A DNA stretch of 64,000 bases from Geitlerinema sp. PCC 9228 (GTDB taxonomy: Bacteria; Cyanobacteriota; Cyanobacteriia; Cyanobacteriales; PCC-9228): NCBI RefSeq assembly GCF_001870905.1, contig NZ_LNDC01000140.1, forward strand, positions 1 through 64,000, given 5' to 3'. Under the pieces are notes generated by a model that searched no databases, was not told the DNA's origin, and worked only from the letters and a program-made list of their open reading frames with translations. Made by a program: the position numbers and the translations under genes. Shown here piece by piece: positions 23,700 to 25,919 of this stretch (its first letter is position 1; each line of letters starts with the position of its first letter).

Positions 23700-24091
23700 C
23701 AATCCTCGATACGTTTGGAAGCCCTGTCGCTTGAGCGCAGGGAGGAAAAACGAACGGCGACTAAAGTCGCCTTCCCCACCAAGGGGGAGAACGAAAAGAG
23801 GTACAGTTTACGTTCTTTCCGGTTCTAGCCGGCATCGCCTACCCTGTACGGCGTAAGGTTCGCCTCAGCAATGTTATCGGTCGGTACGATCCAACGCAGC
23901 ACTGTTTCCTTCTGGTTTAACTGTTTAACTGCTCGGTTCTAGAGCATGGGACTGGCGTCGCATCCCAAGGTAGGAACTTGAACACTTGCCGATAACGTAA
24001 CCCCCAAAGGGCTGAGGCTGGTCAGCTACCTAAAGATCGCCTAAAGATCGGAGGCACGAACCCCCGTCTCGCTACTGCGGGGTGCTGAGGG
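23700..24091 (+). mobile_element. Non-autonomous IS200/IS605-like 3'-end element (copy A)
   Basis: About 390 bases matching, in the opposite orientation, the sequence at 45898-46202. The left part reads RLEALSLERREEKRTAT in one frame and resembles the tail of TnpB; the right part has GGGCTGAGGCTGGTCAG and ends ACCCCCG..CGGGGTGCTGA. Relative to copy B it carries an extra 70 bases (about 23811-23880) and an 11-base tandem duplication (CTAAAGATCGC, about 24030-24050). This layout is that of a tnpB 3' end with its omega-RNA region, with the transposase lost. It lies immediately upstream of speE. Confidence 0.6.
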
Positions 24092-24261
24092 ATACGATGC
24101 GTAGGCACAACCTCACTAGCATATCATATCTGGGCTGGAGGGGAAAGATGGGGCGCGGAACAAGTGAAGCGTTTGGTGAAAAGAGTTGTCTACTAGTTGG
24201 TGTGATGGTGCGATGGCAATCAACAAACCTATCTGCCGTACTGCCAAAGAGCCTAAAAAAA

Positions 24262-24320
24262 GAAAAAACGCCCAGAGACTGGGCGCTGCCATCAGGGTGC
24301 ATCTACTAATAGGTACTATA
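24262..24320 (-). ncRNA. Candidate small RNA, copy 1
   Basis: On the minus strand, TTGCAG and TATAGT (24315-24320) form a promoter-like pair 18 bases apart; transcription would begin near 24308, pass through GATGCACCCTGATGGCAG and end in the hairpin CGCCCAG-TCT-CTGGGCG followed by six T (down to 24263). The RNA would be about 45 bases. The core is identical over 27 bases to copy 2 at 25529-25555. It also contains ATGCACCCTGATGGC, a possible start codon. Confidence 0.5.
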
Positions 24321-24443
24321 GCAATGAGGGGTCAGACCCTGCAAGTAGTTTTACAAAATTTTATATTTTGGATTGGTTGGGTTGGCCTGTCATATGCAGG
24401 TAAGTATGGGGAAAATGGGGAAAGTAGTTTTTAGAAAATCCCT

Positions 24444-25481
24444 ATGAAATACAACCAACTTGGGTCTAGCAATCTCCAGGTATCGGAAATTTGCCTGGGA
24501 ACGATGACCTTTGGCGAACAAAACACCGTAGAGGACGCTCACCAGCAGTTGGATTTGGCTGTGGATGCGGGAATTAATTTTATTGATGCGGCGGAAATGT
24601 ACCCGGTTCCCGCCAAAGCTGAAACTCAAGGACGAACGGAAACCTATATTGGGAAATGGTTGTCGCGACAGCAACGCGCAAGCTTGATTGTCGCCACCAA
24701 AGTTTCCGGACCCACCGCCAGGTTGCCTTGGATTCGCGGTAAAGACAGAAGGCTCGATCGCCGCAATATCGAACAGGCAGTCAATGACAGCTTGCAGCGG
24801 TTGCAAACGGATTACATCGATCTGTACCAAATTCACTGGCCGGACCGATACGTGCCTAAATTTGGTCGGGTGGAATTCGACCCCAGACAAGATTGGGAAA
24901 GCGTCCCCATTGCCGAACAGTTAGAAGTGTTGGCCGATTTGGTGAAGGCTGGCAAAATCCGCTACATTGGTTTGAGCAACGAAACCCCTTGGGGAATCTG
25001 TCAGTTTTCCCACCTCGCCGACCGTTTGAATTTACCGAAAATTGTTTCCATCCAAAATGCCTACAGTTTGGTCAATCGGGTTTTTGATGGTGCTTTGGCC
25101 GAAGCTAGCTACCACGAAAACGTACCGCTGCTGGCTTACAGTCCTTTGGCCTTCGGTCATTTAACGGGAAAATATTTGCAGCAAACCCCTGCTAACTCTC
25201 GTATTGGCAAGTTTCCCGAGTTTGGCGGTCGCTACCAAAATCCCAATCTGCAAAAAGCGGTGGCGGAATATGTAGAGCTGGCCAAAAAATATAATGTTTC
25301 GCCGGCGGTTCTGGCTCTGGCTTTCGTGCGATCGCGCTGGTTCGTTGCCAGTACCATTATTGGTGCGACCACGTTAGAACAGTTGCGGGAGAATTTATCG
25401 AGCCTGGATGTGGAGATAACTCCTGAAATGCTGGAGGATATTAACGACGTGCACAACCGCCTTCCCAATCCCGCTCCTTAA
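24444..25481 (+). CDS. Aldo/keto reductase (Tas-like)
   Basis: A 345-residue NADPH-dependent aldo/keto reductase. The catalytic tetrad is visible as Asp and Tyr in FIDAAEMYP, Lys in VATKVSG and His in IHWPDR; IGLSNETPWG and the C-terminal STIIGATTLEQLREN bind the cofactor. The extended length and MTFGEQN/AEMYPVPAKAETQGRTE resemble E. coli Tas. The substrate is unknown. The gene is flanked on both sides by copies of the same minus-strand small-RNA-like element, which is unusual. Confidence 0.9.
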   Translation: MKYNQLGSSNLQVSEICLGTMTFGEQNTVEDAHQQLDLAVDAGINFIDAAEMYPVPAKAETQGRTETYIGKWLSRQQRASLIVATKVSGPTARLPWIRGKDRRLDRRNIEQAVNDSLQRLQTDYIDLYQIHWPDRYVPKFGRVEFDPRQDWESVPIAEQLEVLADLVKAGKIRYIGLSNETPWGICQFSHLADRLNLPKIVSIQNAYSLVNRVFDGALAEASYHENVPLLAYSPLAFGHLTGKYLQQTPANSRIGKFPEFGGRYQNPNLQKAVAEYVELAKKYNVSPAVLALAFVRSRWFVASTIIGATTLEQLRENLSSLDVEITPEMLEDINDVHNRLPNPAP

Positions 25482-25506
25482 ATTGGCATCTAGCGATCGC
25501 TGCCAA

Positions 25507-25562
25507 ACAAAAAAACGCCCAGAAAGTACTGGGCGCTGCCATCAGGGTGCATCTATATTCTA
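25507..25562 (-). ncRNA. Candidate small RNA, copy 2
   Basis: Same architecture as copy 1: a minus-strand TTTAAC (25580-25585) and TAGAAT (25557-25562) 17 bases apart, then GATGCACCCTGATGGCAG, then CGCCCAG stem sequence (25516-25522 with 25529-25535) with loop changed from three to six bases, and a seven-base T run with one interruption. Stem conserved, loop variable, terminator conserved: this argues for a selected RNA. Confidence 0.5.
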
Positions 25563-25919
25563 AGTTACCCTAATGTGGGGTTAAACCCATCACAAGTTTG
25601 ACAAAACTTCATATTCCCCGAAACTTAGCTTTCAGCGTGGAAAACTAGGCGGCAGCGATCGCTGTGTTGCTCTCATAACGACAAAAAAGCTATGATGCAT
25701 GGAATATCAAGCCTTGGATGGTCAGCTTCAGTGTTCAACCGAATCTCTAGGGGCGGTTAGCACGACAGCCGGATTGTAGCAAGCCTTTTTAATATATCGT
25801 TACAATAGAAACGAAAAGAAGAGGAAAGCCATAAAAAAGTGCTTTATTTTAGTGCTTGAATGCAATTTACTGGCTTGTGCCTCTTGCCATTTATTAAAGA
25901 TAAAGGAGGCCAAGAGTTT
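25563..25919 (+). promoter_or_regulatory. Leader of the site-2 protease gene
   Basis: No gene. ATATATCGTTACAATAG (about 25792-25808) includes TACAAT, a possible -10 box, inside a small dyad TCGTT / AACGA. GATAAAGGAGG about 10 bases before the ATG at 25920 is a strong ribosome-binding site and fixes the start of the downstream gene. Confidence 0.35.

Follow-up and report, generated by a model that had tools for sequence, protein, structure and literature searches.

Candidate HetR-type operators at a pair of NsiR1-family small RNA genes in Geitlerinema sp. PCC 9228 point to a second promoter class of the family

Two short RNA genes of the NsiR1 family, located on the minus strand of a 64,000-nucleotide stretch of the genome of Geitlerinema sp. 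PCC 9228 (contig NZ_LNDC01000140.1; hereafter the window), probably represent a second and old class of NsiR1 promoter, at which HetR would act directly instead of via the DIF1 motif and independently of heterocysts. This boxed class, so called for the HetR-type palindrome upstream of the RNA, is mostly missing from the Nostoc-like genera in which NsiR1 was studied. The anatomy of the RNA genes, the family match of the first copy, the candidate operator, its conservation and the co-occurrence with HetR were all read from the sequences compared. NsiR1 has been described as a heterocyst-specific, DIF1-driven RNA (PMC9045159, PMC6133370), and no description of a HetR-type box at its promoter was found in the portion of the open NsiR1 literature covered, mostly by keyword; a prior description is possible.

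The two copies lie on either side of a gene for an NADP(H)-dependent aldo-keto reductase (NCBIfam NF007912, 429 bits, cut-off 415) and share ACTGGGCGCTGCCATCAGGGTGCATCTA, identical in 28 of 28 nt at 24278-24305 and 25528-25555, 1250 bp apart. A duplicated minus-strand element flanking this gene, with terminator hairpins of identical stem and unequal loop, had been described in a sequence-only reading of the same DNA, and both observations were confirmed. Copy 1 was identified by Rfam as NsiR1 (RF02399, 41.7 bits, above the gathering cut-off of 39), with a start at 24308, the same position as the 5' end proposed in that reading. Copy 2 gave 29.4 bits (E = 0.003 in a local search), below the same cut-off, and is named NsiR1-like because of its 28/28 identity with copy 1. 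Both copies combine the seed GATGCACCCTGAT with an intrinsic terminator, as NsiR1 does. The seed, predicted to be mostly single-stranded, was common to 204-237 NsiR1 copies, one base having been left free in the search pattern. Between speE and copy 1 the window also contains a HEARO (IscB-type guide) RNA (23853-24089, minus strand, 98 bits), beside which no IscB/HNH reading frame was recognised by eye in the ORF list. The coordinates of the features are collected in the table.

Table. Features of the two NsiR1-type genes and of the gene between them (window positions; candidate and predicted elements as discussed in the text)
Feature	Position	Strand	Basis or remark
NsiR1 copy 1, RNA gene of ~48 nt	24261..24308	-	Rfam RF02399; predicted start near 24308
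NsiR1-like copy 2, RNA gene of ~50 nt	25508..25557	-	RF02399 below cut-off; identity with copy 1
NADP(H)-dependent aldo-keto reductase gene between the copies	24444..25481	+	Context, outside the RNA system
Seed GATGCACCCTGAT, copy 1	24291..24303	-	Common to 204-237 NsiR1 copies
Seed GATGCACCCTGAT, copy 2	25541..25553	-	Sequence, cross-genome comparison
Terminator hairpin, copy 1 (9 pairs, loop 3, T-run)	24267..24287	-	
Terminator hairpin, copy 2 (9 pairs, loop 6, T-run)	25514..25537	-	
Candidate HetR-type operator GGGTCTGACCC, copy 1	24329..24339	-	25 nt before seed; HetR core GGGN5CCC from PMC4192349, PMC4649674
Candidate HetR-type operator GGGTTTAACCC, copy 2	25578..25588	-	24 nt before seed
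-10 box TATAGT, copy 1	24315..24320	-	Sequence; TATAnT-like box at similar seed distance in many box copies
Possible -35 box TTGCAG, copy 1	24339..24344	-	Sequence; one base overlaps operator
Candidate -10 box TAGAAT, copy 2	25557..25562	-	Weak

Other claims of the sequence-only reading stood in part. Its 18-nt core was recovered at both sites, but wide conservation is limited to its first 13 nt, GATGCACCCTGAT, and the GGCAG that follows is specific to the subtype; elsewhere in the 4.8-Mb genome the 18-nt core was not found, with up to two mismatches allowed. A multi-copy cyanobacterial small RNA had been suggested, and the core was indeed found far beyond this locus, but membership of the Yfr families was rejected, Rfam giving NsiR1 (RF02399) and no match to any Yfr. 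A peptide-coding reading of the ATG of the core was also discarded, the codons after the ATG and seed varying between genomes. As for the view that the structure looks selected, the window pair alone shows no covariation because both stems are identical in sequence, but the differing stem sequences in other genomes do show it.

Both window copies carry GGGTNNNACCC, the core of the HetR site, 24-25 nt before GATGCACCCTGAT, which places GGGN5CCC at the promoter. The operator of Anabaena hetP is GAGGGGTCTAACCCCTC; HetR-DNA complexes define the need for GGGN5CCC (PMC4192349), and in mobility shifts changes to GGG or CCC abolished HetR binding while other changes did not (PMC4649674). The consensus of the NsiR1 boxes, GGGGTNNNACCCCTCA, matches the hetP operator with its flanks, sharing the GGGN5CCC core together with the outer G and C and the TC that follows downstream; it differs in lying at a small-RNA promoter, as a candidate site proposed from sequence likeness. 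The DIF1 motif TCCGGA at -35 is absent from both window copies, which were therefore not classed as canonical DIF1 NsiR1. The promoter boxes proposed earlier are plausible for copy 1, with an 18-nt spacer between TTGCAG and TATAGT that contains most of GGGTCTGACCC, but in copy 2 the proposed TTTAAC falls inside the palindrome GGGTTTAACCC and TAGAAT is weak. The arrangement TTGCRG-N18-TATAnT, with the palindrome in the spacer, is shared by copy 1 and the Oscillatoria/Laspinema copies. A simple sigma-70 scan of the region returned two promoter-like sites, against 1.9 in shuffled sequence, and the promoters thus rest on cross-genome conservation, not on consensus scores.

The same caution applies to the box. 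GGGN5CCC alone is common (24 occurrences in the window against 27 expected from shuffled sequence), so a single site carries no weight, whereas position and conservation do; by our own estimate, with equal base frequencies, chance would place the motif within the 31-position range searched in fewer than 1% of copies. Matches to the strict HetR-type pattern GGGTYTRACCCCNCATTR with zero mismatches occurred in the genome only at the two window sites, while matches with two mismatches were at the level of the reversed control and a looser pattern gave 18 matches against 11 for its control, which is near chance. Two further observations concern such sites: a symmetric one, GGGTCAAACCC, at C106:28361-28379 of the same genome precedes the gene of a 205-aa protein for which Pfam gave no match, and in promoters of the window's type at six loci (L001, L060, L110, L132, L134 and L150) the palindrome is preceded by an AT-rich element similar to TGTAAAGNTTTGTAAA.

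When 237 unique NsiR1 copies were sorted by strict rules, 87 carried the box, 108 carried DIF1, 42 carried neither and none carried both; the copies came from fetched loci, partly chosen by the search, and the proportions are therefore biased, but the absence of double copies is not explained by locus choice. A looser count of 204 copies gave 87 with the box, 105 with DIF1 and 12 with neither, one copy fitting both loose definitions. The two groups also differ within the RNA, the leader GGTA being found in 75 of 108 DIF1 copies but in none of the 87 box copies, and a G after the seed in 75/87 box copies against 2/108 DIF1 copies. A stem of at least 5 pairs directly before the T-run was present in 76 of the 84 box copies with a locatable T-run, and its sequence differs between groups of box copies. 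The box copies form a second NsiR1 class, which the Rfam model captures only partly.

Sub-types can be recognised within this class, if roughly, since a few copies assigned to neither main type by the terminator rule also sit at gatB/argJ. Sub-type A, with 63 copies, has a terminator of the GGGAGAG/CTCTCC kind and a palindrome that in most copies ends at 31-32 nt from the seed; within the fetched loci, gatB lies upstream in 44/63 and argJ downstream in 19/63. The position between gatB and argJ is conserved in several taxonomic orders, inside and outside that of the window (L048-L077, L100-L119, L207-L223). In sub-type B, to which the window copies belong, the end of the palindrome is 24-27 nt from the seed, CGCCCA/TGGGCG terminators are frequent, and copies with this promoter type adjoin different genes in other genomes. 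Tandem boxed copies of a third kind were found in Trichodesmium erythraeum and Okeania.

The place of the palindrome bears on the sign of regulation. The spacer between -35 and -10 is a classic repressor position, and since the type B palindrome lies there, binding of a protein could lower transcription instead of raising it. A less probable variant, compatible with direct action of HetR, is that HetR represses the boxed promoters in vegetative cells, the RNA being produced where HetR is missing or where a PatX-type peptide neutralises it; this sign would be opposite to that of the Nostoc DIF1 copies. Besides the TTGCRG/TATAnT spacer of copy 1 and the Oscillatoria/Laspinema copies, this variant accords with findings in Leptolyngbya BL0902, where HetR increases the expression of some genes and decreases that of others (PMC11298460); however, NsiR1 of Nostoc is a HetR-dependent, induced RNA (PMC9045159), and the palindrome of sub-type A is situated 5-8 nt further upstream than that of type B, overlapping -35.

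The genome of the window contains three more NsiR1 genes above the cut-off, on three other contigs (53.6, 46.1 and 45.1 bits), which brings the genome-wide count proposed in the sequence-only reading to five copies. Upstream of these three lie the DIF1-like motifs TCCTGA, TCCGGA and TCCCGA, the last of them weaker, and the GGTA leader is present in two; their assignment to the DIF1 class is a looser call, because none satisfies the strict spacing rule. The window copies have neither a DIF1-like motif nor the GGTA leader. The single HetR of this genome (545 bits against an NCBIfam equivalog cut-off of 489) keeps, in Anabaena numbering, the DNA-contact residues Arg62, His69, Glu71, Lys73, Arg74 and Lys76 (named in PMC4649674), as well as the PatS-binding residues Glu253, Glu254, Asp256 and Asp270, both sets having been read by eye from an alignment with solved HetR chains. 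The nearest relatives found for this HetR belong to Oscillatoria, Laspinema, Trichodesmium and Okeania (73-76% identity), genera generally described as not heterocyst-forming, and boxed NsiR1 was present in 16 of the 22 named genomes of this relative search. A nifH gene at C78:34510-35322, the NifH product of which scores over the equivalog cut-off, makes the organism probably a nitrogen fixer, and from its sequence the host would be a non-heterocystous, nitrogen-fixing filament. Three of these points go beyond the earlier reading, namely the palindromes of HetR type at the promoters of both copies, the further NsiR1 genes on other contigs and the HetR partnership across genomes.

This partnership was evaluated in 390 genomes drawn from the class Cyanobacteriia. 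The seed was found with GGGN5CCC 8-38 nt upstream in 175 genomes and with TCCGGA 32-36 nt upstream in 172, the reversed-pattern control for the box and the control for DIF1 both giving 0. NsiR1 above the Rfam cut-off was found in 203/390 genomes and HetR in 198/390, with 196 of the 198 HetR genomes having NsiR1 above the cut-off; the Fisher values for this association ignore shared ancestry and are descriptive only. In the remaining two HetR genomes (G164 and G238) the NsiR1 match is weak, a seed is preceded by a HetR-type box and there is no strict DIF1 copy. Both are of ~3.4 Mb, with one HetR and one boxed NsiR1 beside gatB (loci L062 and L061, respectively), and possibly represent a minimal HetR-NsiR1 system. 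NsiR1 was found without a HetR match in seven genomes, of which G093 and G370 are assemblies only 62% and 70% complete; in the mostly complete G006, G021, G243, G310 and G388, either an assembly gap or loss of HetR would account for this. Nine genomes without HetR gave weak RF02399 matches (E 1.5e-4 to 9e-4; families f17, f5 and f38), which were taken as probable chance, because the model also gives scores below the cut-off in E. coli.

A HetR-type box was present at NsiR1 in 170/198 HetR genomes, many of them from lineages not known to make heterocysts. Many of the HetR genomes without it belong to a single family (f6), including the genera g6, g8, g16, g19, g21 and g23, and this family holds tandem NsiR1 arrays adjoining a hetF-like gene. 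We infer that f6 is the Nostoc family, in which case its being mostly without the box would explain why work on Nostoc did not encounter the boxed class.

Conversely, HetR was found in 170 of the 175 box genomes, and this proportion bears on the possibility that the window genes are NsiR1 copies of the ordinary kind whose palindrome serves another regulator with a site of the GGGTNNNACCC form, HetR having no direct role. Such an account, which we consider improbable, draws on the five box genomes without a HetR match and on the Anabaena DIF1 promoters, the HetR dependence of which is indirect, HetZ driving them more directly (PMC7377430), but it conflicts with the match of the box to the known HetR operator, flanks included, and with the presence of HetR in nearly all box genomes. 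That the pair is a functionless local duplication, such as repeats spread with a mobile element, is very improbable. In its favour are the adjoining orphan HEARO RNA, the 28 identical nt and the varied gene neighbours of this promoter type elsewhere. Against it, divergence has affected the promoters and terminator loops but spared the operator, -10 region, seed and stem, and many families share this architecture with its positions conserved. Direct action of HetR at the boxed promoters is preferred; counting against it are the five box genomes without a HetR match, the near-chance level of other HetR-type sites in the genome and the score of copy 2.

In the mechanism that we infer, as regards HetR binding, the sign of regulation, the conditions of expression and the targets, HetR would bind the box GGGTNNNACCC, centred roughly 25-33 nt before the predicted start, and once bound would change, in either direction, the transcription of a trans-acting RNA of ~50 nt with the unpaired seed GAUGCACCCUGAU and an intrinsic terminator at its end. 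By analogy with Nostoc, the seed may block translation of a few mRNAs by pairing close to their start codons; Nostoc NsiR1 represses alr3234, a hetP-like gene, at the start codon, and hetF by antisense (PMC9045159). The window copies resemble NsiR1 of Nostoc sp. PCC 7120 (RF02399), encoded there in tandem under DIF1 promoters upstream of hetF, in the seed GATGCACCCTGAT, the short RNA, the intrinsic terminator and the occurrence of several copies per genome. They differ in having a HetR-type box instead of DIF1, the leader AGTA/TATA instead of GGTA, another post-seed body and another terminator stem, and in flanking an aldo-keto reductase gene without a hetF array, in a probably non-heterocystous genome. 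A further parallel is RNA162, a 57-nt NsiR1-like RNA followed by RNA-seq in Limnospira indica PCC 8005, a HetR-bearing filament that is non-heterocystous (PMC8400943).

Many filamentous cyanobacteria possess HetR without ever forming heterocysts; its function in them has been called a mystery (PMC11298460), and its targets in non-heterocystous filaments are nearly unknown (PMC4192349). It may be, at a little under an even chance, that the link from HetR to NsiR1 is an old and general output of HetR in filamentous cyanobacteria, such that the boxed gene between gatB and argJ predates heterocysts, the hetF array of heterocyst formers arose by later expansion of DIF1 copies, and the boxed copy was lost from several Nostoc-like genera. 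The HetR-type operator at one small-RNA family offers a concrete candidate for a HetR target outside the heterocyst formers.
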